Positions 11,736 to 32,807 of a stretch of DNA of 64,000 nucleotides are shown piece by piece. Positions within the stretch are counted from its first letter, which is position 1; each line of letters begins with the position of its first letter. The stretch spans positions 2,309,001-2,373,000 of the forward strand of contig NC_087392.1 in NCBI RefSeq assembly GCF_963675165.1. The letters run 5' to 3'. The DNA comes from Halichondria panicea (Eukaryota; Porifera; Demospongiae; Suberitida; Halichondriidae). The position numbers and the translations under genes were made by a program. The notes beneath the pieces were generated by a model. It was not told the origin of the DNA. It saw nothing but the letters and a program-made list of their open reading frames with translations, and searched no databases.

Positions 11736-14700
11736 ATGGATCCCGTGGTCCCCAGAAGCACACTGTCTCCTGCTGGATATCAGGCTAGTGTTGATAGCAA
11801 ACCCAGGCTATCCTCCCACTCCTACAGACGGGCTATTGGTGGGCCACTAACAGATAAATACAGGTAATCAGTGAGACCTCAAAAGGTTTATTGTGACTGA
11901 AACAGGGCTATACCGGATGTGGGCAAGTAATAATTGCCCACAGTCATGTTGACCATTATTAAATTTCAGTAAGTAATTATAACATTTTCTACAGAACAAA
12001 GAGTGTGAACAAGGTTAAAGTGAGGCGTCTCAAAATGCCTGACAAAGAAGACAAGCCAAAGACTGTTGGATTCATTAAGCTAGTAAGCTGCACACCATGT
12101 ACCACTAGGCCTTATCAGTAGATCAGTAGATCTACTGCTAAAAGTGTGCATATTAAATTCTATATAAAGTGGTCCTCCCTTGCAGTTCCGCTATGCCTCA
12201 TGCCTGGACGTGGTGCTGATGCTGGCTGGACTGGTGGCTGCATGCCTCAGTGGTGCAGCCTTTCCTATTGCAATGAATGTGTTTGGAGACATCACCAACT
12301 TGTTTATCAACCACCAATTCTCCCGAGATGTGGTCAGCTCAAATGTCCTCCCGTGTCCCTCGAATCCAAGCATTCTTATCCTAATATCAAATGTGACTGG
12401 TGGCGTTGTGAATTGCAGCACTAACTATATTTCTCCCGGCTGCACATTCAACTTGTCTCAGTTCATATCTGGCCAAGTAATGTGTTTAAGTAATGAAGAC
12501 TTCATTTCAGAGATCAACCTTCAAGTGTACGCATTCATAGGCATTGCTGTCGGATCGTTCCTCTTCTCCTGGATTCATGCATGGTTTTTCCAGATGGCAG
12601 CAGAGAGACAGACTCATAGGATCCGTCTCTTGTACTATCGCTCTGTTCTCAAGCAGAACATTGGCTGGTTTGAAGAGAACTCCAGTGGAGAAGTGTCCAA
12701 CAGACTCTCAAGGTACTGCTATTGTATATACACTCCCATTGAGTTCATGGTACGCTGCTCTGTGTATTTGCTCTTTTGAAGGATAGACATGATTAACGCA
12801 CTAGTGTGAGCTAGAGCTCGTTAGAAATTGACACTTTCTCCCTCCTTGCGTGCATACACTAAATGCTGATTAAAGTTTGACACCTCTCTTTTCAGTGGAC
12901 TGGACAAGATCTACAGGGGCATTGGTGATAATGTGTCGCAACTAGTGCAGTGGGTGGCCACATTTTTAGTTGCCCTGGTCGTTGGTCTAGTGCGACAGTG
13001 GGAGCTGGCTCTACTCCTCTTTGTGATCATACCGTTTATGGCACTTGCAGGGGCTCTGTTTTCTCGAGTGAGTTACAGCTTTGTCTTTGTTGTTTGGTGT
13101 TAGTATGCTTCATGCCCTTGGGTGTTTGGATTGTGCTAGACTGCTACACTGTGCACAATGACCATGGTTGTACATATACACATAATTATGCTTTGTTAAT
13201 TGTACCTTTATGCAATAATTATATGCGCTAAAATTAATGTGGGCCAAGACTAATTCTTATAATTATAATAGCTTGGAGCCATATTTTCAAGTCGTGAGGA
13301 GAAGCTGTATTCAACTGCTGGAGGCATAGCCAGTGAGGTCCTCTCCTCCGTCAAGACTGTCTTTGCCTTCGGGGGACAACAGAGGGAGAGTGACAGGTAC
13401 CGTAGTACTATACAGTGGGCCTGCGTGCATACTCATCAAGAAGCAACATGCATCACTTTTTGTTAATTGGTGCATTATTGAGGCATCTACCAGGGCTTCG
13501 TTGTCTCCTTATTCAGTAATGCTGAAACTTAACAAATTTTGTGTTTGTTCCTGAGGCCCATGGAATGAGTATTACATGGTGTTGTGTTTCTGTCACCTGC
13601 AGATATGACCGGAACCTAGCAGCTGCAACCAAGCAAGGGGTGTTCAAAGGTGCCACCGTTGGATTCAGTGTCGGGGTCATCTATTTCCTTATCTTCATTG
13701 TCTACTCTGTCTCTTTCTGGCAAGTCAAAGTGTATTATGTTTGTATCCTTTCTCTATACATACCATACCAAACTGAGAAGCACATATGTATTACTATAAC
13801 TCAGCCTATAGGTCAACAGTTAGCTTCATGCTTTTCCTGCTAACCATAGAGATGATATAAGGAAGCAAAATGTTTGCTGCAATCTATATATATATCAATC
13901 TTATATATATATATTTATATCCCGTTACTACGTTGTTGCCAAGTGCAATATGCAGCATAATGCACTGCTGAAAGTCATAATGCACTAACCACAAAACGCC
14001 CCTCCGGCATTAGACAATTAAATATTGTATCATGAGAAATAACAAGTATATCAAAGTAAGTCCAGCCATGCAGGAATGTTCAGCACTGCTGGAGTTTCTT
14101 CTTTGCAACCATGCAGGTTTTAAAATTGTCCAAGGCTCATTTTGTGGAAGATTCTGTGTTCCTAGACCTAGTCCTCGACTTCGTGATGCATGTCAATTCT
14201 GCTTCACCATAGCACTAGAAGCGGCTCTTTTTGCTGGGGCTTGAGCTGTTTTGCAGCAGTGTAGAGGCGAGCTTCTTTGGCTTGGTTGTGATGCCGAGGA
14301 TAGTGGAGGGCTGTTTCTTCGCAGCAGTTACACTGAGTAGTGGGGTGGGGCTGTTTCTTCGGCAACAATAGTAAGTAGGGTGGGGCTGTTTCTTTGCAGC
14401 AGTAGTGGGGTGGGGATGTTTTGCAGTTTTCAGCGTTGGAACTCCAACAATTTTGTGTCAAGCCATTCGTCGGTCATGCCAATCTTATACGCTGCATATA
14501 CTGGCGTCTAGAAGAGAGAAGAGATGGAGCTGTGTAGAGTTGTCTTTGTCATCTTTTTGTGCAGTTTATATTGTGTTACTAAGACAGTGTTACGTTGCTA
14601 TGCCCTCGGGATATAAACTAGTTATAACACGTGCACTCGGGATGCATGGCATATATTGCACTCAGCCCTCGGGGCTTACGCCCTCGTGCTTCAGTGCAAT

Positions 14701-17700
14701 AAATATTCCATACATCCCTTGTGCCCGTGTTATAACTATAACATAATAGTATGCATATATGCATGTAGGTGCAACTTATTGGTAGTTATCCATTCATGTA
14801 CACATAATTATAGTTGTGTGAATACGCTTCTCTGTTTTCTGGCCATCTGTGCAGGTTTGGAGGGTTCCTTGTATCAAGTGGTCGGGGACAAGGTGGTGAC
14901 GTCATCACAGTGTTCTTTGCCATTCTAGTGGGAGCCTTCCAACTTGGACAGGCTGGACCGAACCTCCTCAACCTCTCCGAATCTAGGGGAGCAGCCGGCG
15001 AGATATACAGTACCATTGACAGGGTCAGTTTTGCATCTGTGGTCATGCTCTTCACTGTCACTTTGTTGTAGCCTAGACCAAACTTGTATTAAAAATTTTA
15101 GTTGCACACTTTAGTAAATCGTCACCTTCAGGTGCAGATTGTTCAATGTTACACATAATGATTATGTCCACGGCAGATCCCACACACAGATGTGACAAAT
15201 ATTTAAGCCCTGTCCGCATGGTTAGATCAGAACGTACATTCATTAGAACTTTTGTACCTGAAGGGTCACTAACACAATCCACACAGTGTTTTGACAAGAT
15301 TTTATGACAATGTTAATTGCACAGCCGCTCACAATTGACTCGAGCTCAGAAGAAGGTCTAAAGCCGGATAATATGGAGCACACCATTGAGTTCAAAGATG
15401 TCAATTTCTCTTACCCCCATCGACAAAATGTGCAGGTTGGAGGATAGTCTCGTCAATAAAAATTGTTTTGTACATATATGTATACATGTATGCTATGTAT
15501 ACAGTAGATACACATACGCACAACTTGAAATTCCTGCTCCATGCATACGCACACCGCACACCCTCAGGTGCTCAACAACCTGCAGCTGCGTGCTGGTGCA
15601 GGTCAGACGGTGGCTCTGGTAGGCCCCAGTGGCTCGGGCAAGAGCACTGTCATTGACCTAATTCAGAGATTCTATGAACTGGGTAGTGTTGGGCAGGTAC
15701 GTTCTCAGTTTAAACTATTTCCCTCTCTTTATCTCTGCTATGAGCTAGTATATATTATGTATGTTTACGTATGGACTAGCTAATTGTACTAGTCCTCTTG
15801 TATCGACAGTATTTTCTTTGCCATGCAGCTCCTGATTGGAGGCTATGACATCAAGGACCTAAACCTCAAGTGGCTACGCAGTCAGATGGGTTTAGTCTCT
15901 CAGGAACCCGTTCTCTTTGACACCACCATTGCTGAGAACATTTGCATGGGCAACGATAATGCCACAATGGAGGAGATGCAAGAGGCTGCCAAGAGTGCCA
16001 ATGCTCACGATTTCATCTCGTCTCTTCCAGACGGCTACAACACACAAGTGGGTGAGGGCGGAGACCAATTGAGTGGGGGACAGAAGCAACGTGTGGCCAT
16101 TGCTCGAGCTCTCCTCAGAAATCCTAAAATCCTCCTTCTGGACGAAGCCACCTCTGCCCTGGACTCTGAGAGTGAGAAAGTTGTCCAGAATGCTCTCGAT
16201 AATGCTTGTGCACGTACTGATCGCACAACTATTGTGATTGCTCATCGCCTCTCAACCATTCAAAATGCTGATCTTATCGTGGTTTTAGACAAGGGCCAAG
16301 TCACTGAATCTGGTACTCATTCCGAGCTTCTCACCAAGAATGGATTGTACGCTGATCTCGTGAACACCCAGTCCCAAGCTCTACAACTTGAGGTTCCTCG
16401 ATACAGAGCCAGACCTCTAACTGGACGTAGCCTGAGAAGCAAGTCTTGGAAACAAAAGAGTATCCCTCGTACTCTGCGACGAGCCACAACCTTCACTAGC
16501 TCCGTGAAAAACCTCTCTAGGCGATCCTCTAGAATTAGTACACCGTCTAGAGCTAGTAACCGTAGCAGCTCTGCCACAGAACCCACTGAGATGACTGACG
16601 TTGGTACATCTGTTGACGTTGTTGCCCCAAGTCCAGTGGAAAGCGATATTGACAAGGATAAGCTCCCTGATGTGTCGTCATGGAAACTGATGAAAAATCT
16701 GTCGTGGAGGATTTGGCTGGTGGTGTTCATTGGGATCATGTCCTCCATTTTGAATGGCCTAGTCTTTCCCTCCTTTGCTGTTGTGTTTGGAGAAGTGCTG
16801 GGAGTGTTCTCTCTGCCGGCTTCTCAAGTTTTGGACGAAATTCACCCGTGGGGAGCAACGTTTCTCGCTCTGGGCATTGTACTCGCCGTCTCTACATTTG
16901 TCAAGGTGAGCAGTAAGCAAGATGGATGCAGGGCGGATCTAGCCAAAAATGTATAGGGGGGTTATAGACAAAAGCGAGCGCGCAAAATGTTTGGCCACGC
17001 CCCTTTCACGCCCACTTAATTGAAATTGATATCATGCGTGCACAAAGCAAATCTACTGTCTACTACAGCTAGGTGCCTTGTCATGTATACTAATACATGT
17101 GAATGGTATGTTGGTATGTGTGGATGGAAATTATTGTGTATTACTACTTAGTGTGTCCTGGACTTGTACTCATGTCAACAGATACTAATACTTCATCGTT
17201 CACAGCTTGTAAGTTAACCATGCACATTGCTCATTTAGCCACAAGCAACACAAGTGTAGGTTGATCTAGTTTTTGTGAGTGTTTGGGGGGTTGCAACCCC
17301 TGAAACCCACCCCCTAGATCCGGGCCTGGGATGTGTGTACAGTGTTAGGACCTGAAACTCATGAGCAAATTTTTTCGTGCTATTTTGCCAATAATTTTCA
17401 CCTCATTCAATCAATCATGACTGCTCTCCCACACAGAACCTATGCTTTAGTATATCGGGTGAGAATTTGACTCGAGTTGTTCGCTCCAAGCTTTTCAAGG
17501 CCATTCTTCGTCAGGAAGTTGGCTGGTTCGATGATGAAAGTAACTCAACGGCCGCACTCTCTACAAAGCTTTCCTCCAATGCTGGAGATGTCAGTGGGGT
17601 ATGTCAGTTTATTCAAGCTAGCCCTAAACCTAGCGATAAGGAATTCCATTGTACATTGTACCTAAAATAAATTTTGGCCCCATATAAAATTGGTCTTACT

Positions 17701-19879
17701 TCTTTTCTTTTCTGGTGTTGCCTTGTTTAAACAAGTATAACACAGTAGAAGAGTAATTAATGCTCTGTTGGCTCATGTGTTTGCTGTTCTGTGTCTTGAA
17801 GGCTGAGTGTGTATGTTTCTTGCAGGCTGCCGGTGTGCGGCTGGGTACTGTGATAGAGATGTCTGTGACACTGTTGGCCTCCATGGCTGTTGCGTTTGGT
17901 TACTCCTGGATTACTGCCTTTGTTGTTGTGGGACTCATTCCTATCCTGGCTGTGGGCAGTGTACTGTACTTTTCTTTGGCTGCTGGGCGTAAGAAGTCCT
18001 CCAACAAGGGCCTCAAGGAAGCATCAGAGGTGAGTGCTCACCTTCTTAGCCGAGGGGTTGTAGCTATTACTACATTAGGTAGCTAGCTACTCTCACTACC
18101 AACTGTAGTTGCAATGTAGCAAACAGTATGTTACAGTCTATAATTATTTCTTGTTACATTGTATTTCTCGGTGCAGATTGCTCTGGAGAGTGTGAAGAAC
18201 ATCCGTGTGGTGGCTGCTTTTGGTCTTGAAGAATCGTTTTATCAAACTTTTGAGAAAGAAGTTCTGGGAACCTACAAGTAAGCGTACATATACATTCAGG
18301 AATGCATGAACATGCACTCCTGATACGTTACATATACTTCTTTTTATTTTTATTTCTTGCCTCCACTGATAGGAGAGTATCCTTGTTTGGTAACGTGGTG
18401 GTTATCATTGTTATTATTGCATAATCAGGTCTGCACGGGCTTTTCTGAGCCCATGTATGTAATTCACTGCGAATTTTTGGGTTGGGAGGTCATCAAGCCA
18501 GGGATGTGCCGATGTGACGTAAAGTGTATGCAACCACATGCTCATTGATGTACACGCACACACACAGATTGTCGGTCTGCCTTAGTGTGCTCTTTGGTGT
18601 TGCCTATGCTCTCACCCAATCTCTCGTTTTCTTTGCTTACATTGTCACATTTCGTTTTGGTGCTTACATCGTCATGTTACCTACTGATGACATTCTTTAC
18701 ACTGGTTACGAAAATGTTTTCCGTGTATTTTCTGCCATTGTGTTTGGCTCAATTGCTATTGGAGCAACTGGTTCTTTCGCTCCAGATTACACCAAAGCCA
18801 AGGAATCAGCAAAAATTGTGTATGCCATTTTGGATAGGAATCCTGAAATCGACAATTACTCCCAAGATGGATTAAAGCTCGAAGACGTGAAAGGAGATCT
18901 CCAATTTGAGAATGTTTTCTTTGCCTACCCTCAGAGGCTCCAAGTGAACGTACTGTCAAGTTTCAGCCTCAAGGTGAAGCAAGGTCAAACTCTCGCTCTG
19001 GTGGGGGCAAGTGGAGGAGGCAAGAGTACAGTCATGCAACTCATCGAGAGGTTCTATGACCCGCACGCTGGATGTGCTTCTCTGGATGGCACAAATATCT
19101 TGGACATTAATCTCTCCTGGCTCCGCTCTCAGATTGGGATAGTGTCTCAAGAGCCGGTGTTGTTTGACGGAACGGTTGCTGAGAATATCCGATACGGGGC
19201 CCTGTTCAGAGAGGTGTCTGATGAGGAGGTGATTGCTGCAGCCAAATCTGCCAACATACACAGCTTCATTGAAACACTGCCAATGGTGAGTAACGTTAAC
19301 AGGGCCTACCCTGTTTTCTGCTTGTGCTATGGGAGGCAGTGGAGATGGAATGATGGTTGATGTTAAGTACCCCTAACCTCCCGTACATGAATCTCTCAAA
19401 TCTAACATTCTATATATAGACCCTCGACAAACAAACAACATTATAATACATGGCTGATATAAACTGCGTTTTACGTACAGGGTTACAACACCAGTGTTGG
19501 TGGCGAGAGCAACCAGTTGAGTGGTGGACAGAAGCAACGTGTAGCCATTGCTCGAGCTCTCCTCCGAGATCCGAAAATCCTCCTTCTGGATGAGGCCACC
19601 TCTGCCCTGGACTCTGAGAGTGAGAGGGTGGTACAAGAAGCTCTCGACAAAGCCAGGGAGGGCAGGACCTGCATAGTCATTGCTCACCGTCTCTCAACCA
19701 TATATAACTCCGACTGCATTGCTGTACTGAAGAGAGGCAAAGTGGCGGAGTTGGGGACTCATCGGGAGTTGATGGAAAAGAGGGGGCTCTATTATAGGCT
19801 GAATGGAGCGAAGGCTACAAGCCAGCCAGAGCAGGAGACAAATAACACCGAGAGTGGCATTTCAATTTTACAAATATAA
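11736..19879 (+). CDS. ABCB1-like: Full-size ABCB (P-glycoprotein/MDR-type) transporter, second tandem copy
   Basis: Fifteen exons: 11736-11863, 11995-12082, 12186-12712, 12896-13067, 13272-13396, 13603-13719, 14855-15023, 15325-15435, 15568-15696, 15829-16905, 17437-17598, 17826-18029, 18177-18277, 18568-19285 and 19481-19879; 1408 aa in an exact frame. Order is TMD1, NBD1, a long Ser/Arg-rich linker (about 16390-16680), TMD2, NBD2. Walker A is GPSGSGKST in NBD1 and GASGGGKST in NBD2; both NBDs have [16 protein letters not shown] and [14 protein letters not shown]. The intron after 13719 starts with GC (GCAAGT), is 1.1 kb long, and is needed to keep the SFWFGG reading. The gene lies 294 bp after its paralogue on the same strand. 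NBD2 exons are far closer to the paralogue than the rest, which suggests gene conversion. Its 3' half from 16078 on is duplicated at 28175. Confidence 0.93.
14290..14425. repeat. Degenerate minisatellite in ABCB intron
   Basis: About three imperfect units containing GTGGGGCTGTTTCTTCGCAG inside the long GC-AG intron of the second ABCB gene. Confidence 0.5.
14621..14736. repeat. Imperfect inverted repeat with GTTATAAC termini
   Basis: Begins GTTATAACACGTGCACTCGG and ends in a related inverted sequence (CCCGTGTTATAAC). The middle is GCATATATTGCACTCAGCCC followed by a degenerate mirror. It is likely a short fold-back or MITE-type element in the long ABCB intron. Confidence 0.6.
16926..17330. repeat. 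Intronic repeat with GGATCTAG-type ends
   Basis: The ABCB intron contains GGGCGGATCTAGCC at the left and an inverted-like CCCCCTAGATCCGGGCCTGG at the right. It is probably a short non-autonomous element, copied along with the duplication at about 29023-29425. Confidence 0.4.
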
Positions 19880-20147
19880 TGTGACATTTTAGATATAGCA
19901 ATTTTTAGACATGAGTTTACAGTACATTCAAACACATTCAATAGCTTCATAAGCTAGCGTATAAATTTTGAATTTTACCTTATACGTACGTACACGGCAG
20001 TGGTTCTAGATCTCCAAATGCCAATAATGATTATGATGACAATTATAATTTTCAAATCAATGACATAAAAAAGTAATGTGCAAATGAGCTGACTATTACG
20101 TTATATGCAGCACTTCAGCTAGTATAATAAGCACACACATAATCATA

Positions 20148-20674
20148 CTAGGTATAGTGAGTATCTCTTCGTGAGGACGAGTTAGAATAAGATAGTTTTT
20201 CATGCTTTGATTTTCGCTCATGGTGTAGCTGCATGGAGAGACGGAGAGACAGTACAGGTTTACAGTAAAGTCTTAATGCATTTTAATTAAGAGAACTTAC
20301 CACTCGCTGTTGCTTGTACTTTTGTTTGAACTCTGCAAGAGACAACTTGTTGTCTAGAAAATCTTCTGCAATGACCTGGGAGAAATAATAGAGAAGTATA
20401 CAGCCTGTCATATTACGTACCTCTGATTCAGTTTCTGCTTCCTGCGTCAGTGTCTTCAATCGAGCCACAATGTTTTTGGACTGGTACCTCTGCAAGTGTG
20501 TGTGTGTGTGCGTGTGCGTGTGTGCGTGTGTGTGTGTGTGTGCGTGTGCGTGTGTGCGTGTGTGTGTGTGTGTGCGCATGTACATATAATACGTGATACC
20601 ATTACCTCAGTAAGCTGTTTTTGTTCTTCTAGCAGTTTCTCATAATCAGTCTTCAGTGCTTGCATCTCTAAGAA
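20148..20674 (-). pseudogene. VPS37A: VPS37A 3' fragment (last four exons)
   Basis: Exons 20606-20674, 20421-20489, 20301-20375 and 20148-20228 are identical or nearly so to the last four exons of the complete VPS37A gene at 32241-35422. They encode the C-terminal Mod(r) helices (FLEMQALKTDYEKLLEEQKQ onward). The duplication boundary at 20714 falls in the intron upstream, so no 5' exons, UEV domain or promoter are present. Splicing from the neighbouring tensin exon is out of phase: tensin leaves two bases, the joined codon is followed almost at once by TAG. It is therefore most likely a non-functional by-product of the duplication. Confidence 0.85.
20499..20578. repeat. GT/CGTG microsatellite
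   Basis: A (GT)n stretch with interspersed CGTG in a VPS37A intron. It is repeated in the second copy at about 32588-32668 with the same length pattern. Confidence 0.9.
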
Positions 20675-21675
20675 CTACATGTATATACAACACAAAACGT
20701 AAACTTCTAAGAAAATATATAAATATAATTATAGAGTCTCTGCAAAGAGAAGTATTAGATTTATAACCTCTAACAAATAAGTGCTAATGACACCTTACTG
20801 TCGAGCACGCACAACACACACACCCACACACACCCACGCACGCCCACACACACACACACACGGTACCTGTTAGCATTGGTAGCCTTGATAAAGACCCTCT
20901 CATGATTTGAGAACGACCTGCTCCTCTGAATAGACTCGGCCCTCTCCCTCTCTTCACTGGTACCCTCTGCTCCGGGGGTTATGTCCAGGTCCGCCAGGTT
21001 AGAATAGAAATCAGAACCAGAATTACTCGTCATGGTCAGATTCCCAGAACTTGAAGACCGACGCCCGATACTGTCAGAGTTGAGTGGAACAGGAACATCA
21101 GGGAACTTCACTTTAGCCCACATGTCATTGTCCACAGCGGACTGTCTGTTAGGCAAATGCTCAACTGAGATTTCTTGATTGAGCGGAATCTCATCATACG
21201 ATGGTTGGTGTTTTAAGACACTTAGAGGGTGGGCTGAAGGTTTTGCTGTTTTCTTTTCCGCTTTTGATGGCGTTTCTGATGGCTTGGTTATCTTTTTTGT
21301 CTTTGTAGCCTCCCCTCTTGATTCTAAATTGGCACTCTCACGCTTTCGTTGAAGATGCTGTTTTAGTATTTGTTTCTGCAGTTCTTCGTGCACAGAGCCA
21401 ATTTTATCGTCTGTTGGTTTGGGTTTAAACACCGGTTTAGTACGAGGGGTGGGCCGTTGTGGGCGTGGCTTTATGACAGGGGTGTGGTCAGGGGACGATT
21501 TGGTTGGTTTGGTTTTGGAAAGCCCCGGACCATCTGTCCCCTCAGTTGCGAGGGTGGTGGGTGTGTCATCGTCTATCTCGGCATAGTCTTCATCAGTGGG
21601 TGTTTGAGAGTCCAGGGATCTGGAGTGAACAATTAATACACTGATACACTTTTATCACCGTACAGTATATACATG

Positions 21676-22417
21676 TAGCCTCCTTCGCAGCCTCTCCTTT
21701 TTCTGTTCTTTGTCACAGAAGAAAAAATTGGAGGAACAAAGAAAGAAAGAAGGAAGCAACTAAGAAAAAGGAGAGCCTGCCTTGCTAAGTCGCGTGATCC
21801 CCTACTGACGTAGACAAATTTTAACGAGCGTGGGCGAGAGAAAACCTCAATAACTGTCCTCCCACACAGTACTTGGAGCGCATTTACCAGGAACATAATC
21901 TGTTATGAACAGTACAGTACAGTGCAGTAGAGTCAGCCTTCGTGAGACCTTTAGTCAGTAGAGGAAGTATGAAAGACTAGAGTAGAGTAGACTATACTGC
22001 TGTAATAATTATATCTACTAATCAAGTGGGTCTGTTCTGAACTCAGGAAAAAAAACTGAGCTAAATTTAGATATTAAATTTTAGTCTCTTTAGTCTTTAC
22101 TAGGTAAGCCCTCGTCTACGATGTCTCCACGCTTGATTCTGGCTTACTATCTACGATGCTAACAGCTTTTATTTAGAGTTTGCAATGCGTAGGCATGCTG
22201 TAGCTTTTTGCTCTGTCAGCCTCCGCCCAGCTAGTGATTGCCCACGTTCATTTTCACTCGTCTACCACTCGTCTACCGTCACGCGACTTAGCAAGGTAGG
22301 CTCTCCTTTTTCTTAGTCTCTTCCTTCTTTCTTTCTTTGTTCCTCCAATTAGTCCCGTATTTTATCTTATTGAACTATGACAAAGAACAGAAAAAGGAGA
22401 GGCTGCGAAGGAGGCTA
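21676..22417. mobile_element. 742-bp fold-back element with long terminal inverted repeats and 9-bp TSD
   Basis: The left arm starts TAGCCTCCTTCGCAGCCTCT and the right arm ends with its complement (AGAGGCTGCGAAGGAGGCTA). Homology between the arms extends about 140 bp inward (to the AGTCGCGTGA / TCACGCGACT pair). It is flanked by a 9-bp direct repeat ATATACATG (21667-21675 and 22418-22426). No ORF is seen in the centre. The 9-bp duplication fits Mutator-type elements. It lies in a tensin intron. Confidence 0.88.
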
Positions 22418-23418
22418 ATATACATGTACATGACGACTGTACATGACGACTGTACATGTACATGAATATAGTGGTATAAAATTAAATGCATGCTCATGCG
22501 TTACATCACCATTTTAGAGCTGCATACATATGACACATGTACGTGGCACTCTCATGCAGTCATGATTGCATGCTGTAATCGAAGCCTATTCCACATAATG
22601 TACAGTACATGTTATCTATAATTAACACACGTACATGTACAACCATATGAAGGGGTTACCTTGAAGGGGGTATCCTGGGTAGAGGACGATGGACCAACTG
22701 GCTGCCGGCTTTACGCTCCCCAGAGGGGGGTGGGGGTCTGGGTGGCTTGACTGTCTTCACAACCCCTAGGTTTGGAGTGGATGGAGACGAGTCAGGAACT
22801 CTTCTATCACTTCTATCGAGAAGACTGAAAAGAGAGTCATTCGAAGTAGCTTTGTGTGGCTTTAGGATTTTCTTTGGTGGAGGAGGTGGCTTTTCTTCTG
22901 GTTGAGCAATTACTTCATCTCGTTTTGTCTTGTCTTTGACTGATTTTTGGACGACTGTGTATAACTCTGAAGATTGGGGATGTGTGAAATGGTCTATATC
23001 GTCGGGGTCCATTTGAGCACTGATTTCACTCTCTGCCCTCTCACGACGAAGTTGGGGGTACTTTATCTTTGGGGACTCCAAACTACATGTACATGACAAT
23101 TGTATATATAATTGTGTACGATGGTGAGGGAGGCCAGGGCCATATATTAGACTGACTATAGAAGTTAAATCTAGAGTTTTAAATCTAACTAGCATATGTA
23201 GTATATCCTATATAGACTTTACATCAGAGGAGGTACATGTATGACTCGATTAGGCTAAAATTAAGGTATTTGGTCACATCAATACATGTAGTCTGGCCAC
23301 GCCCTCCCCAACTTTGTATTGGGTCGGGTGAACTAGAACAGAACTACCACAAAGCAACAAACACTAATTTTATAGTTTAAAATAATTATAGCATTCAATT
23401 ATTCTACATGTACATGTA

Positions 23419-23977
23419 TACCGTACTCTACCGAGATTACACCCACCCTAATTGCATGCTACAAAGCAGCTACAGGTGGGATGGGCTTAATTTCGAAAAC
23501 AGTAGTTTTGTCTCGAAATTAAGCCCACCCAGGTGTTTGCCTCGAAATTAAGCCCACTCATTAAGAAACTATTCTTCTCTGTCTGCGTCTGAGGCCTGCC
23601 AGCTTTTGAAATACAATGAATACATCAACATACAACAACGGTGAATGCATGGGTAAAGTAGGTAGGTATAAAAAGTCAAGACTCTGCATCAGAAGGTTGT
23701 TCCTTGTCACTGTCAGTGTCTTCAACAGAGATTTAGAGAAGATTGTCCTTGTCTCTCTTATACTTGCTAATAGAATCTAGCTATATCTAATTATTCAGAG
23801 CTAACCAGCGTACACAATAAACTGCTAAACCTTTTCTTGAAAACTTGCTCACTGACAAGATGTATCACTTCCTGGTGGGCGTATTTTCGAGGCAAATTAG
23901 CCTATGCAGGAACTTTCACCCAAAAGTGGGGGTGGGCGTAATTTTGGACGTGGGCGTAATCTCGGTAGAGTACGGTA
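23419..23977. mobile_element. 559-bp MITE with TACCGTACTCTACCGAG termini
   Basis: Terminal inverted repeats TACCGTACTCTACCGAGATT and its complement at 23950-23977 are near-perfect. The flanking sequence is TATA on both sides, which suggests TA-type insertion. The interior has repeated TCGAAATTAAGCCCAC units in both orientations. No ORF is seen. Confidence 0.85.
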
Positions 23978-24398
23978 TATACATGTACGTACAATGTACA
24001 AGCAAATAAAAATATATAAAACCCAAAACACGGTCACACCATTGTTCAAATCAAAGCACTCTCACAGATCCACCCACTCACTCCATAAGGTTGGGCGGGT
24101 CGTCTCCCGGCATCCCGCTGTCATAGCCTCCTCTGAACGAAGCGTACGAGTTCCTCTTTGCCAACACGTCATCGTCCAACCCAATGTTCCCATTGGTCGC
24201 CGTCCCATTGTTGACTGTCAGCTGTTTGCCGTCAAGAAGAGAGGAACGGACATCAGCAAATGGTACATCTGTGTGTGTGGGGGAGAAGGGGGTGGAAACT
24301 TTACTATGAAGCATATCGATCTGAATTCATGAGTATTGACACAGGTATGAATATTGCGGTAAGCAGTTGAGAGGATTATTGAGCTACATGTAAGTGCA

Positions 24399-24549
24399 TG
24401 AGAGAACAACCCCCCATAGTGAGAGACAACCCCCCATAGTGAGAGACAACCCCCCCCCCATAGTGAGAGACAACCCACCATAATGAGAGACAACCCCCCA
24501 TAGTGAGAGACAACCCCCCATAGTGAGAGACAACCCCCCATAGTGAGAG
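24399..24549. repeat. 20-bp minisatellite (GAGAGACAACCCCCCATAGT)
   Basis: About seven or eight near-identical head-to-tail units of 20 bp, differing mainly in the length of the C run. Units abut without spacers, so this is a VNTR in a tensin intron and not a CRISPR array. Confidence 0.9.
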
Positions 24550-24792
24550 AGACCCTCAAATCAAAATCAACTATGAGCAGGCAATGGGATCGACAATATC
24601 AATCAATCACAGCGATTAGTGATTAGTGACTCCAGTAACATTTGGTAGTGGTGAAAGCACAATTGCTAGACTTGTAGACTATTAATTTAACGTGAATTTT
24701 AGGAGCGTGTAGAGTCATGAATAGCAGAAGTTAATTCATAACACGGTTAAAACATTTAAAAGGGGATACCTCCCACTTTTTTAATTAATATC

Positions 24793-25506
24793 ATGGCTCT
24801 GCAAGTAACAAACGAAGTGTTTGGTGTGATACCAGAAGACACCTCAACAAAAGCAATCGAAGCTACATTTGATCATATTCACTATGACGGTGGAGTAGTA
24901 TCTGCAGTAACAGTGATCAGCAGCCATGAACATATTATTGGCATCGATATACTACGATCTCTGCATTAACAGTTCAAAGGGAAAGTAAATTGGATGGTGA
25001 AGGTTTTGGTCACCGAAGATCATGAAGACATAGAAGCAGTTTGTGATACTGCTATTTCATATGTAAAGCGAGTTACCGGTGAAGCACCAGTATATCATGA
25101 TGGTGGCTTTAATAAACGCAAGAGAAAGCATCATGTGTACGCACTGGTACACCGAAATCTGTACTACGTGGAAAAGACACCATATCCAACCTATTTGAAG
25201 AGCAGTGTGAGCGCTTATCTTCGAAAAAATCCACTGTCAGACTTTTATATCGGTATTGCTAGTGGTCGTGATGCTTTCACTGCAATGAAAGCACGTCGCA
25301 CAGGTGACGACTACAAGGAAATGCACGGCATCAACCGGATGACGGCTGTTTTCAAATCGAAAGATCAAAAAATATGCAAAAAGCGTGAAAAAGAACTTGT
25401 TGCAGCGTACAAAACGCACCCAAGGAATTTAAATCGAATAGGCGGAGGTGGGGGAAGAAGTACCAAACAACCATGGAGTTACGTGTACCTCGCCATGCAT
25501 GTTTGA
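24793..25506 (+). pseudogene. Single-exon ORF with GIY-YIG-like nuclease features, one in-frame stop
   Basis: An intronless frame from ATG 24793 to TGA 25506 (about 237 codons), interrupted once by TAA at 24967-24969; both sides are in the same frame. The downstream part alone has an ATG at 24994 (170 aa). Near the C-terminus are FYIGIASGRD, then a basic RRTGDDYKEMHG segment, then a Glu-containing helix (KKREKELVAAYK) and NLNRIGGGGGR. The order tyrosine/glycine strand, Arg, Glu, Asn is that of GIY-YIG endonucleases, though the first GIY-type strand (VYALVHRNLYYVE) is atypical. It sits antisense in a tensin intron. It could be a decayed captured gene or part of a mobile element. Function is not established. 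Confidence 0.5.
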
Positions 25507-25783
25507 GATTTGAGACTGACTAGAAACATATAAAGCTAGACTGATAGAAAGACGGACAGTAGACTAGAAACTGTAACATTTTAAGTACATGTACATGTGT
25601 ACTGTAGCTAAAGATTTCTGTGTACAGATCGAGTTTATATTTTGAATCTAAAAAATTGGTACCTGTACATGTTCAGTACATACACGTACATGTACATGTG
25701 AAATGTGTTCCATATGAAGTCTAAGGCGTCCAAGGTAAAGCCACAAGCAAGCTCAAGACTCCTTAAAAAAGTCGACATAACTG

Positions 25784-26238
25784 TTACAACTTATCCCGAT
25801 CTTCAACTATTGATCCACGAGCATAACGTTGGATAAAGGTTGCTGCGTTTAGAATGCCTAAATAATTCGTCCTTACGATACATTGTCTAGACCAAGCTTC
25901 AATACAATGGCAAGTTTTACTTTGAGGAAACGTTTTTGGGCTATGGACCTTCTTACATGAGTTTGAAGAACAATAACAGCAGATCGCTTTCGTAAGTAAT
26001 CATTTCGTACAATACACATTCGAGCTGAGGCTTGCAGAATGCAAGTAGCTTTGCGAATTTGCTGGTAACGTGCTTGAGATATCATAGATCGAACGTGTGC
26101 CTGAACACGTACCACAGTTTCCACTGTCTTTATATAAACGCTTCGCTCTTGCCTCATAAGCAAAATAGACCTCCATTTTCGCTGCAGCAATGTCGTACAA
26201 ACACTGACACGTGCAAACAGTTTTCTCAGGTGAAACAT
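25784..26238 (-). pseudogene. IQ-motif repeat fragment (ASPM/myosin-like)
   Basis: The minus-strand frame 25873-26238 encodes four or five IQ-like units (RVQAHVRSMISQARYQQIRK, ILQASARMCIVRNDYLRKRS, VLQTHVRRSIAQKRFLKVK) that resemble the calmodulin-binding IQ array of ASPM. A further IQ unit (AATFIQRYARGSIV) follows at about 25784-25860 in another frame, which implies a frameshift. No flanking exons or calponin-homology domain are seen. It sits in a tensin intron on the same strand. It is likely a decayed fragment, perhaps of retrocopy origin. Confidence 0.45.
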
Positions 26239-26254
26239 TTTCCAACTAGGTCGT

Positions 26255-26331
26255 TAAAATTTCGTGGAGGTCAGCCTGCCCATGAAAATAACGAATATTT
26301 TACCCCACGAAAATTACCTGCTATACGGTAC
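26255..26331. repeat. Truncated relative of the CCGTATAG MITE family
   Basis: Ends CCCCACGAAAATTACCTGCT followed by ATACGGTA, matching the right terminus of the element at 34041-34273. The left half is degenerate or missing. Confidence 0.6.
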
Positions 26332-26571
26332 ATGCATGCACAACTGTATACCCTCAAGCTTGTAACTCTCCCACTAATGTACTGCATGTACATGTACGTA
26401 TGATAAACTGTTGTTTACAGTCTTGTACATGTATGTAGAAGCATAAACATGTGCATGTACATTGTATGTGCATGTGCATGTAATTGCCTAGCAACAAAGT
26501 ATGAAGGGTGGGTGGTATCATGCAGTGGTGTGAGGCCCGGGTGACTACTTAATTTTGATGCACTAATAAGG

Positions 26572-26646
26572 ATCGTGGTTACTCAATATTAGGAGTCCTT
26601 TGTTGTGGCAAACTATAATAATTTACTGATATTGAGTAACCACGAT
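26572..26646. repeat. Short hairpin (ATCGTGGTTACTCAATATTA inverted repeat)
   Basis: Arms at 26572-26591 and 26627-26646 pair almost perfectly around a 35-bp loop. It is a probable small MITE or fold-back unit. Confidence 0.75.
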
Positions 26647-27211
26647 TCCGGGAGTATTACTGTACTGTCCAGACAGTTAAAACATTGACCCACTCACGTA
26701 CCATCAGGATACTGGTCCTCTGCATTGTCGAAGATGAGCTCCACCCGGGTACTATCATCAAATCTCTTGTCTTTGAAAGCATCGTCCAGATCTGCCTTGC
26801 TGTACACCATCCGGAGGTTCTCTCCCACCACTGCCGAGTGGAACTGACAGCGAAAGATTATCTCCATTCCGTGGGACTTTTTGTGGAAGCATTTGATCTG
26901 AGTGTGCGTGTGTAGTGGTGGGGGAGGTTATGACAAGTGTGACAGCTGTATGGGTGTGCTTCATAATTACATGGTACATGTACATGCATACACGTACACT
27001 AACCTACATGTACATGTACGCAAAATGTGTACAAAATGTAGGAACAATTAATAATCAAGGGATGTCAATACAGTACTCCTGACCTACCTACATGTATGTA
27101 GCTACATTGTACGTACATGTACATTGTACAGTTACTCACCAAGACTTCTCCTTTTAGACTCAGTCCTCCGTATATGGATATCTTCACTCTCTCCTTGTCC
27201 GCCTGGCAAAG

Positions 27212-27212
<1 letters not shown>

Positions 27213-27267
<55 letters not shown>

Positions 27268-27277
27268 GGGGGGGGGT
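27213..27277. repeat. (GT)n microsatellite followed by poly-G
   Basis: About 25 GT units and a run of roughly ten G, immediately upstream (minus sense) of a tensin exon whose acceptor is CACACACAG. The pyrimidine/purine tract forms part of the splice acceptor region. Confidence 0.9.
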
Positions 27278-28174
27278 GAACGGTTAGTTATCGTGGGGCT
27301 ACAAGTACAGTGGAGCCCGCCACTTTGCAAAAATAAAATCTGCAAAACCTAAAATAGTAATGGTAATGACACACGGTCGGTCCTTGCCAGAATGCAATAG
27401 TTAGATCGCAAAAGGTTAACATTTCTGCTGATTTGGTCCATTTGCAAAGGTTTCAAAAACCCGCAAAATATTCTAGTAATACGGTGGGATATATTGATGC
27501 ACAAAGTAGGCCACAAAACTCACATACATGACATGTATGACAGAGTGAAATAATTGAGCAAAAATGAGTATCAACCCTCCACCCACCCCAACGCCCACTC
27601 ACTATAGTCCAGAGGTGTAAACGAGGTCCATGTTGTCGTAGATCTTGAGGAACGGTCGAAACCCTCCCTTGCCGTCAAAGTTGGGTATACCGTGGATGAT
27701 GAGATGCTGGAGGGTCACGGGCCTGTGGAACAATGTGCGTACATGTACATGTAGGCTGTAATACTTAGTATGTGTATGTGTTGTGTAGAGTGTATCAAGA
27801 CTAGATATGAGTATACATACATGCATATTCAAGGATACATGTACATTGTAGCTAGTATTCTTGCCACTTTTGTATAGATGCAGTACAGTAATTGAAGGAT
27901 ATCTACGATGTATACAGCACAGTTATAGTAACATGTATACAAATGTAGGTACTGTTCCTGTACAAACGTAATTAATTATCCTGATCAAAACATTTTTGAA
28001 GAAATAGCGATAACGTCCTAAGCATAGACGGATATAATCCACAGACTCACGGTGATTGGAGGTCGATCTTCCCGGCTAGTAGGTCAGCAAAGTAGTGAAC
28101 GTACTTCCTCTGGGAGGGTTGGGTCACGCCCCCACACTTGCTATCGTAGAACCTCTTCATGGCGAACCGATCCA

Positions 28175-31100
28175 GGACAGAAGCAACGTGTGGCCATTGC
28201 TCGAGCTCTCCTCAGAAATCCTAAAATCCTCCTTCTGGACGAAGCCACCTCTGCCCTGGACTCTGAGAGTGAGAAAGTTGTCCAGAATGCTCTCGATAAT
28301 GCTTGTGCACGTACTGATCGCACAACTATTGTGATTGCTCATCGCCTCTCAACCATTCAAAATGCTGATCTTATCGTGGTTTTAGACAAGGGCCAAGTCA
28401 CTGAATCTGGTACTCATTCCGAGCTTCTCACCAAGAATGGATTGTACGCTGATCTCGTGAACACCCAGTCCCAAGCTCTACAACTTGAGGTTCCTCGATA
28501 CAGAGCCAGACCTCTAACTGGATGTAGCCTGAGAAGCAAGTCTTGGAAACAAAAGAGTATCCCTCGTACTCTGCGACGAGCCACAACCTTCACTAGCTCC
28601 GTGAAAAACCTCTCTAGGCGATCCTCTAGAATTAGTACACCGTCTAGAGCTAGTAACCGTAGCAGCTCTGCCACAGAACCCACTGAGATGACTGACGTTG
28701 GTACATCTGTTGACGTTGTTGCCCCAAGTCCAGTGGAAAGCGATATTGACAAGGATAAGCTCCCTGATGTGTCGTCATGGAAACTGATGAAAAATCTGTC
28801 GTGGAGGATTTGGCTGGTGGTGTTCATTGGGATCATGTCCTCCATTTTGAATGGCCTAGTCTTTCCCTCCTTTGCTGTTGTGTTTGGAGAAGTGCTGGGA
28901 GTGTTCTCTCTGCCGGCTTCTCAAGTTTTGGACGAAATTCACCCGTGGGGAGCAACGTTTCTCGCTCTGGGCATTGTACTCGCCGTCTCTACATTTGTCA
29001 AGGTGAGCAGTAAGCAAGATGGATGCAGGGCGGATCTAGCCAAAAATGTATAGGGGGTTATAGACAAAAGCGAGCGCGCAAAATGTTTGGCCACGCCCCT
29101 TTCATGCCCACTTAATTGAAATTGATATCATGCGTGCACAAAGCAAATCTACTGTCTACTACAGCTAGGTGCCTTGTCATGTATACTAATACATGTGAAT
29201 GGTATGTTGGTATGTGTGGATGGAAATTATTGTGTATTACTACTTAGTGTGTCCTGGACTTGTACTCATGTCAACAGATACTAATACTTCATCGTTCACA
29301 GCTTGTAAGTTAACCATGCACATTGCTCATTTAGCCACAAGCAACACAAGTGTAGGTTGATCTAGTTTTTGTGAGTGTTTGGGGGGTTGCAACCCCTGAA
29401 ACCCACCCCCTAGATCCGGGCCTGGGATGTGTGTACAGTGTTAGGACCTGAAACTCATGAGCAAATTTTTTCGTGCTATTTTTGCCAATAATTTTCACCT
29501 CATTCAATCAATCATGACTGCTCTCCCACACAGAACCTATGCTTTAGTATATCGGGTGAGAATTTGACTCGAGTTGTTCGCTCCAAGCTTTTCAAGGCCA
29601 TTCTTCGTCAGGAAGTTGGCTGGTTCGATGATGAAAGTAACTCAACGGCCGCACTCTCTACAAAGCTTTCCTCCAATGCTGGAGATGTCAGTGGGGTATG
29701 TCAGTTTATTCAAGCTAGCCCTAAACCTAGCGATAAGGAATTCCATTGTACATTGTACCTAAAATAAATTTCGGCCCCATATAAAATTGGTCTTACTTCT
29801 TTTCTTTTCTGGTGTTGCCTTGTTTAAACAAGTATAACACAGTAGAAGAGTAATTAATGCTCTGTTGGCTCATGTGTTTGCTGTTCTGTGTCTTGAAGGC
29901 TGAGTGTGTATGTTTCTTGCAGGCTGCCGGTGTGCGGCTGGGTACTGTGATAGAGATGTCTGTGACACTGTTGGCCTCCATGGCTGTTGCGTTTGGTTAC
30001 TCCTGGATTACTGCCTTTGTTGTTGTGGGACTCATTCCTATCCTGGCTGTGGGCAGTGTACTGTACTTTTCTTTGGCTGCTGGGCGTAAGAAGTCCTCCA
30101 ACAAGGGCCTCAAGGAAGCATCAGAGGTGAGTGCTCACCTTCTTAGCCGAGGGGTTGTAGCTATTACTACATTAGGTAGCTAGCTACTCTCACTACCAAC
30201 TGTAGTTGCAATGTAGCAAACAGTATGTTACAGTCTATAATTATTTCTTGTTACATTGTATTTCTCGGTGCAGATTGCTCTGGAGAGTGTGAAGAACATC
30301 CGTGTGGTGGCTGCTTTTGGTCTTGAAGAATCGTTTTATCAAACTTTTGAGAAAGAAGTTCTGGGAACCTACAAGTAAGCGTACATATACATTCAGGAAT
30401 GCATGAACATGCACTCCTGATACGTTACATATACTTCTTTTTATTTTTATTTCTTGCCTCCACTGATAGGAGAGTATCCTTGTTTGGTAACGTGGTGGTT
30501 ATCATTGTTATTATTGCATAATCAGGTCTGCACGGGCTTTTCTGAGCCCATGTATGTAATTCACTGCGAATTTTTGGGTTGGGAGGTCATCAAGCCAGGA
30601 TGTGCCGATGTGACGTAAAGTGTATGCAACCACATGCTCATTGATGTACACGCACACACACAGATTGTCGGTCTGCCTTAGTGTGCTCTTTGGTGTTGCC
30701 TATGCTCTCACCCAATCTCTCGTTTTCTTTGCTTACATTGTCACGTTTCGTTTTGGTGCTTACATCGTCATGTTACCTACTGACGACATTCTCTACACTG
30801 GTTACGAAAACGTTTTCCGTGTATTTTCTGCCATTGTGTTTGGCTCAATTGCTATTGGAGCAACTGGTTCTTTCGCTCCAGATTACACCAAAGCCAAGGA
30901 ATCAGCAAAAATTGTGTACGCCATTTTGGATAGGAATCCTGAAATCGACAATTACTCCCAAGATGGATTAAAGCTCGAAGATGTGAAAGGAGATCTCCAA
31001 TTTGAGAATGTTTTCTTTGCCTACCCTCAGAGGCTCCAAGTGAACGTACTGTCAAGTTTCAGCCTCAAGGTGAAGCAAGGTCAAACTCTCGCTCTGGTGG

Positions 31101-31975
31101 GGGCAAGTGGAGGAGGCAAGAGTACAGTCATGCAACTCATCGAGAGGTTCTATGACCCGCACGCTGGATGTGCTTCTCTGGATGGCACAAATATCTTGGA
31201 CATTAATCTCTCCTGGCTCCGCTCTCAGATTGGGATAGTGTCTCAAGAGCCGGTGTTGTTTGACGGAACGGTTGCTGAGAATATCCGATACGGGGCCCTG
31301 TTCAGAGAGGTGTCTGATGAGGAGGTGATTGCTGCAGCCAAATCTGCCAACATACACAGCTTCATTGAAACACTGCCAATGGTGAGTAACGTTAACAGGG
31401 CCTACCCTGTTTTCTGCTTGTGCTATGGGAGGCAGTGGAGATGGAATGATGGTTGATGTTAAGTACCCCTAACCTCCCGTACATGAATCTCTCAAATCTA
31501 ACATTCTATATATAGACCCTCGACAAACAAACAACATTATAATACATGGCTGATATAAACTGCGTTTTACGTACAGGGTTACAACACCAGTGTTGGTGGC
31601 GAGAGCAACCAGTTGAGTGGTGGACAGAAGCAACGTGTAGCCATTGCTCGAGCTCTCCTCCGAGATCCGAAAATCCTCCTTCTGGATGAGGCCACCTCTG
31701 CCCTGGACTCTGAGAGTGAGAGGGTGGTACAAGAAGCTCTCGACAAAGCCAGGGAGGGCAGGACCTGCATAGTCATTGCTCACCGTCTCTCAACCATATA
31801 TAACTCCGACTGCATTGCTGTACTGAAGAGAGGCAAAGTGGCGGAGTTGGGGACTCATCGGGAGTTGATGGAAAAGAGGGGGCTCTATTATAGGCTGAAT
31901 GGAGCGAAGGCTACAAGCCAGCCAGAGCAGGAGACAAATAACACCGAGAGTGGCATTTCAATTTTACAAATATAA
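28175..31975 (+). pseudogene. ABCB1-like: Truncated copy of the second ABCB gene (linker, TMD2, NBD2)
   Basis: Exons 28175-29002, 29534-29695, 29923-30126, 30274-30374, 30664-31381 and 31577-31975 correspond one to one with exons 10-15 of the gene at 11736-19879. All splice sites and frames are intact. The copy starts inside the first ATPase domain, just after the LSGG codons, and has no start codon, TMD1, Walker A of NBD1 or promoter. An open plus-strand frame runs across the junction from about 28052, but it is antisense to a tensin exon and lacks an ATG. Near-identity to the parent means that expression data would map to both. Confidence 0.9.
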
Positions 31976-32807
31976 TGTGACATTTTAGATATAGCAATTT
32001 TTAGACATGAGTTTACAGTACATTCAAACACATTCAATAGCTTCATAAGCTAGCGTATAAATTTTGAATTTTACCTTATACGTACGTACACGGCAGTGGT
32101 TCTAGATCTCCAAATGCCACTAATGATTATGATGACAATTATAATTTTCAAATCAATGACATAAAAAAGTAATGTGCAAATGAGCTGACTATTACGTTAT
32201 ATGCAGCACTTCAGCTAGTATAAGCACACACATAATCATACTAGGTATAGTGAGTATCTCTTCGTGAGGACGAGTTAGAATAAGATAGTTTTTCATGCTT
32301 TGATTTTCGCTCATGGTGTAGCTGCATGGAGAGACGGAGAGACAGTACAGGTTTACAGTAAAGTCTTAATGCATTTTAATTAAGAGAACTTACCACTCGC
32401 TGTTGCTTGTACTTTTGTTTGAACTCTGCAAGAGACAACTTGTTGTCTAGAAAATCTTCTGCAATGACCTGGGAGAAATAATAGAGAAGTATACAGCCTG
32501 TCATATTACGTACCTCTGATTCAGTTTCTGCTTCCTGCGTCAGTGTCTTCAATCGAGCCACAATGTTTTTGGACTGGTACCTCTGCAAGTGTGTGTGTGT
32601 GTGCGTGTGCGTGTGTGCGTGTGTGTGTGTGTGTGCGTGTGCGTGTGTGCGTGTGTGTGTGTGTGTGCGCATGTACATATAATACGTGATACCATTACCT
32701 CAGTAAGCTGTTTTTGTTCTTCTAGCAGTTTCTCATAATCAGTCTTCAGTGCTTGCATCTCTAAGAACTACATGTATATACAACACAAAACGTAAACTTC
32801 TAAGAAA
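28175..32807. repeat. 4.6-kb segmental duplication, copy A'
   Basis: Direct copy of 16078-20714. The left boundary joins a tensin PTP exon (antisense) to ABCB exon 10 at GATCC|AGGACAGAAG. The right boundary passes without a break into the complete VPS37A gene. Since VPS37A is intact here and ABCB is intact on the left, each copy holds one original junction. Confidence 0.95.

Follow-up and report, generated by a model that had tools for sequence, protein, structure and literature searches.

Near-identical direct repeats flank a copied fragment of a tensin-type gene in a sponge genome: a possible germline cycle of templated insertion

How did the interior of a tensin-type gene come to lie on another chromosome, between two nearly identical copies of a 4.6-kb host stretch? 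We analyzed a window of 64,000 nucleotides of the Halichondria panicea genome (C16:2309001-2373000) and searched the whole assembly, 131 Mb in 39 contigs, for its parts. The arrangement in question, A-X-A', is real in the assembly and is composed of the following elements:

16078-20714, plus strand: copy A, delimited by self-BLAST of the window against 28175-32807
20715-20726: filler of 12 bases at the junction of A and X, absent after A' and before the source on C6
20727-28174, plus strand: X, a copy of the interior of a tensin-type gene at C6:5820667-5826404
28175-28176: junction of X and A', with a 2-bp microhomology, GG (GGGCAG on C6, GGACAG in A')
28175-32807, plus strand: copy A', delimited by self-BLAST, its right end continuous with the flank

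This structure is best read as a germline cycle of templated insertion with one template, leading from C16 to C6 and back. In more general terms, a young segmental duplication generated by template switching or theta-type repair fits it best, with a probability that we place at about one half. A-X-A' thereby looks like a copy-and-paste accident of DNA repair or replication, not like a new kind of element.

Self-BLAST of the window returned A and A' as one long pair of direct repeats with 99.655% identity over 4638 columns, on the very coordinates at which the initial annotation had placed two direct duplicates; chance is far too weak to give a match of such length and identity. Compared base by base, the copies are distinguished by 10 substitutions in 4632 aligned bases (0.22%) and four indel events (three of one base, one of three bases), matching the approximately 14 differences originally estimated. 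Among the 60 matches to A listed from the whole assembly (best 40 of 1221 candidates scored), just two, A and A', are full length, the other 58 spanning about 400 bases or less. The substitutions are unevenly distributed, with 6 of the 10 crowded into 238 bases (P=0.0006, 20,000 random placements) and four differences in about 4400 bases outside this tract:

18649-18886, plus strand: tract variable between A and A', holding six substitutions, every one of them synonymous in the open frame

Gene conversion by the neighboring ABCB paralogue was considered as the origin of this tract and rejected, since the paralogue is 57-58% identical there. As a separate observation on these neighboring ABCB genes, their NBD exons (10588-11375 versus 18977-19791) are 84-89% identical at the DNA level and a membrane-domain stretch is about 58% identical, as if the NBD exons were exchanging sequence.

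The host genes reveal which copy belongs to which flank. Of two ABCB-type genes in tandem, A carries the 3' half of the second, starting mid-NBD1; its right end also bears, in minus-strand orientation, an extra copy of the last exons of a VPS37A-like gene, recognized by identity with A'. Pfam ABC_tran was found in frames 15793-16956 and 18518-19360, and ABC_membrane in frame 12168-12779. The first of these frames crosses the left edge of A (16078) unbroken, so that the left flank does continue into A as the initial annotation had it. A', for its part, combines a 5'-truncated ABCB half with the final exons, on the minus strand, of the VPS37A-like gene. Right of X, two of the five minus-strand frames tried matched Mod_r (VPS37), namely 32376-32699, over the curated cut-off, and 32739-33104, under it, and the other three gave none; A' is therefore continuous with a VPS37A-like gene, in line with what had been asserted for the right flank. 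Over the edges examined, one continuous copy of each host gene is kept. The host-gene frames and the C6 origin of X likewise support the original order ABCB-A-VPS37A that had been put forward.

X, previously described as a foreign piece of tensin, is the interior of a tensin-type gene whose home is C6:5820667-5826404, that is, an independent locus of the kind that the earlier analysis had proposed to look for. Besides matches to transposons and simple repeats, those listed for X comprise X itself and this single place on C6, apart from two stretches with other sources that are taken up below. The source gene sits on the minus strand of C6, and X aligns with it in several blocks, orientation and order being kept; the copied length is 5.7 kb by C6 coordinates and X itself measures 7.5 kb. 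As in a templated insertion, the insert is a copy and its source is still in place, the C6 locus being present and continuing past both ends of X. Past the right end of X, just outside the copied part, the C6 gene has a phosphatase exon with an HCKGGKGRTG loop, and a domain search of the home copy located a PTEN_C2 exon inside X. We name the source gene tensin-type after this predicted domain pair; X, which is without the phosphatase loop, is therefore a fragment.

Two further candidates were discarded. Capture of X by a transposon is at odds with its ends, both of which fall within stop-to-stop frames of the tensin-type gene and show no terminal repeats; by eye, they are gene interior with no inverted ends, and the complete transposon that was found lies internal to X, not at its ends. 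A fusion gene was suggested by frame 28028-29053, open across the junction of X and A', and found no support, as no methionine precedes the joint in its translation.

The relative ages of the parts are informative. X and its C6 source differ by 52 substitutions and 11 small indels in 5234 aligned bases (0.99%), as counted in four blocks that leave out a tandem-repeat stretch, the large indels and a nested patch described below. This divergence exceeds that of A and A' (52/5234 versus 10/4632; Fisher P about 5e-7). In five tensin frames, taken stop to stop with intron margins rather than as checked exons, 8 of the 11 differences, a small number, are synonymous, against 3.3 expected (P=0.0045). 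None of the four tensin frames that can be compared whole contains a stop codon in X. One tensin frame has its low-complexity end, which we take for intron, shifted by an 8-base insertion in X. The synonymous excess argues that much of the divergence between X and C6 arose while both copies coded for protein. X was thus probably copied, in a recent event, from a working tensin allele that differed from the C6 sequence by about 1%, and the event itself may be as young as the difference between A and A' implies. An older event with later homogenization of A and A' is the alternative, and it leaves the synonymous excess unexplained.

These unequal divergences (0.22% for A/A', 0.99% for X/C6) also bear on whether all junctions arose in a single event. 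They could be explained by the allelic source of X, an account that we offer short of proof. At face value they would suit two successive events, a simple tandem duplication of A and a later insertion of X exactly at the joint. This history is very improbable: the position of X precisely at the duplication joint would be a coincidence, and an older X within a younger duplication is impossible unless A and A' were converted later.

The junctions themselves show no sign of extended homology. A ends at 20714, where the initial annotation had placed its boundary with X; the next 12 bases, by contrast, are not C6 sequence, and X begins at 20727 instead of 20715. The junction partners have 0 bp in common on the left and 2 bp on the right. 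The only nearby match of at least 10 bases to the filler is AAAATATATAAA, 12 bases made up of three bases of A and nine of filler, which recurs at 24009 in X and at C6:5823234. Base frequencies alone predict about 0.1 chance matches of this kind, so at best the recurrence hints that the filler was templated. When A and its 2-kb flanks were compared with 40 kb around the C6 locus, two common stretches of about 40 bp were detected, both in the right flank, in a comparison run with the low-complexity filter on and with part of the C6 stretch masked. With no longer homology at the joins, these were not made by evident homology, which disfavors homologous recombination, and an overlap-based assembler would have had no evident substrate for a misjoin. 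Long common sequence at the joins, by which a shared-repeat misjoin would be recognized, was not found; a 12-base filler and 2 bp are what a templated-insertion cycle, with junctions free of long homology, would leave.

The same data bear on an assembly artefact, whether from a chimeric molecule or from the two haplotypes of A having been strung one after the other together with a C6 piece from the other haplotype. X does resemble another tensin allele, the tract of six synonymous differences between A and A' looks allelic, and C16 carries one more near-identical direct duplication, spanning 19.8 kb or more. However, two independent chimeric joins would be required, between partners that have just 0 and 2 bp in common, and the C6 region contributes only the two short stretches in the right flank mentioned above (filter on, C6 part masked), making a misjoin unlikely. 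Sequences of 16.7 kb, the total of A-X-A', are within the range of ordinary long reads. On balance we consider an artefact rather unlikely.

Filler and microhomology suit end joining, and hence also a staggered break with a patch, in which distant nicks or breaks on opposite strands would be followed by fill-in of a 4.6-kb overlap, with a tensin fragment captured between the ends. Duplications attributed to staggered breaks are mostly short, and in rice insertions that carry a target duplication the duplicated stretch is reportedly usually short as well, against the 4.6 kb of A here. An overlap of this length is long, and the captured fragment would measure 7.5 kb, so we hold this explanation to be unlikely, even though PMC5730883 proposes, with reference to the rice insertions of Vaughn and Bennetzen 2014, that a pair of neighboring nicks, one on each strand, can give rise to tandem duplications. 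The rice work reportedly also provides a likeness to A-X-A', patch-mediated break repair yielding insertions with tandem duplications, in which a foreign piece goes with a target duplication.

We therefore return to the one-template cycle, whose steps would be as follows. The mechanism would be template switching of the MMBIR/FoSTeS type, or else end joining, through polymerase theta, of a repair intermediate that had been aborted. Synthesis would pass through A on C16 and leave it within the VPS37A-like gene, adding the 12 bases of filler; 5.7 kb (C6 coordinates) of a tensin allele would then be copied; and the 2-bp microhomology would bring the path back into an ABCB exon, at its middle, so that A was copied again before synthesis ran on into VPS37A. 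The VPS37A tail in A, X itself and the truncated ABCB of A' would be bystander fragments of this path. A and A' are direct copies with 99.66% identity, as expected of a path that leads back to its host chromosome and copies part of it a second time. As it stands in an animal's assembly, the structure, if real, should be germline or clonal. Among the points that weigh against template switching, circle integration or broken-end joining yields the identical order, and the excess of X/C6 over A/A' divergence needs either a divergent allele or later conversion of A and A'. A more specific version, namely that the cycle is young and still segregating in the germline and that an unlinked gene, in its other haplotype, served as template for the insert, is put forward tentatively, as a possibility less likely than not.

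A single homologous crossover within A, integrating a DNA circle that carried both A and X, would likewise produce the exact order A-X-A', and moves from chromosome to chromosome through circles have been reported for cattle KIT. Such a circle, however, must itself have been a C16/C6 chimera, first built from two chromosomes through both non-homologous junctions, which is one step more than the templated cycle requires. Among the matches listed there is neither a third full copy of A nor a second arrangement of A with X or of X with A'. Moreover, X is collinear with C6, not permuted, and hence bears no circle signature. As the order is identical, the sequence offers no feature by which to prefer a circle over a templated-insertion cycle, and we regard the circle as quite unlikely.

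Known systems offer partial parallels. In PMC7025897 a cycle of templated insertions is defined as one that comes back to the host chromosome and copies a stretch of it again, and the A-X-A' shape resembles what Li et al. describe; as in those human cancer genomes, a foreign copy is accompanied by a re-copied host segment. Unlike the tumor cycles in that source, which are somatic, A-X-A' stands in an animal assembly and has one main template of 5.7 kb. In helq-1 mutant Caenorhabditis elegans (PMC8654963), tandem duplications form in the germline via polymerase theta, with sizes from 100 bp to 10 kb that include the 4.6 kb of A, and patchwork insertions are assembled from several stretches. Those worms are mutant laboratory strains and their inserts come mostly from beside the break, whereas X is 7.5 kb long and derives from another chromosome. 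Human patients with complex chromosomal insertions made by replicative repair (PMC5120786) equally show interchromosomal copying and joints with 1-3 bp of microhomology or 2-3 inserted bases; in the three basic cases described, however, the inserts span 0.8 to 11.8 Mb, and the host site has a deletion instead of a duplication. Serial translocation of cattle KIT through circles is similar in that gene pieces moved between chromosomes, with a circle model leading to the same product. Our limited literature search yielded no such structure in a natural, non-domestic animal, and we do not claim its absence; outside humans and plants, the nearest cases in that search were the helq-1 worm study and the cattle KIT papers. 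If confirmed by reads, A-X-A' would be a base-level example of a templated-insertion cycle in a setting other than human disease, cancer or mutant laboratory strains, with its source, both joints and relative ages all readable and an earlier patch nested in the insert. Its junctions are PCR-ready, which would allow a natural population to be surveyed for segregating events of this kind. Should A-X-A' fail, it would mark an error class in chromosome-scale assembly.

X contains four additional pieces with no counterpart at the corresponding place on C6:

21676-22417: inverted-repeat non-autonomous transposon of 742 bp, TAGCCTCC...GGAGGCTA
24558-25148: stretch of about 591 bp absent from C6, which in the assembly search matches X itself only
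25716-25807: nested patch, first piece, an internal cut of 91-92 bases out of the middle of a repeat that is dispersed in the genome
25807-26249, minus strand: nested patch, second piece, 443 bases from a CH+IQ-repeat (ASPM-like) frame at C6:6574415-6574861

The transposon is bounded by a 9-base target duplication, ATATACATG, at 21667-21675 and 22418-22426, and C6 has the empty site. Among 40 candidates scored, at least 38 other near full-length copies are 93-98% identical, which suggests recent activity of the family, represented in the window at 21667-22426; each of the four other copies examined by eye has a 9-base duplication. The 9-base duplications and long terminal repeats recall, as we presume, Mutator-like elements. 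The 591-bp difference is probably a deletion in the C6 haplotype. A 178-aa frame lying partly within it (24970-25506, plus strand) had no Pfam match up to E=1 and no significant match among solved structures, where one hit reached E=0.84.

The nested patch is a second, smaller insertion, with two templates and of similar style to A-X-A'. Its position corresponds on C6 to the site of a small inverted-repeat element, and its order is the 91-bp piece, then the 443-bp ASPM-like piece, then an element end. Copies of the dispersed repeat run past the first piece on both sides in all six cases examined, and the second was taken from the middle of the ASPM-like gene, 0.75 Mb away on C6. The latter piece differs from its source by five substitutions, four of which change an amino acid, and a 4-base deletion. 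Its divergence (1.1%) is above that of A and A' (0.22%; P=0.007), and the patch is therefore probably older than the move to C16; it presumably sat in the copied tensin allele before that move. Only one of its five substitutions is synonymous, against 8 of 11 in the tensin frames, a difference that is not significant alone (P=0.11); this share fits the neutral expectation (P=0.52), as for a dead piece. If the proposed cycle is true, then, together with this patch, multi-template repair would be a recurrent and ordinary source of chimeric gene pieces in this small genome.

The second direct duplication on C16 pairs 4712227-4732000 with 4743001-4762829 at an offset of about 30.8 kb, in two pieces with 99.78 and 99.88% identity, and extends to the edge of the examined sequence on both sides. 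Near-identical direct duplications are hence not unique to the A-X-A' locus, and those on C16 are either young and not rare or have a common assembly cause. A fragment of organellar origin was also encountered, a nuclear piece of mitochondrial COX1 at C1:5280527-5280718, which has two TGA codons within the match and is the sole COX1 match in the assembly.
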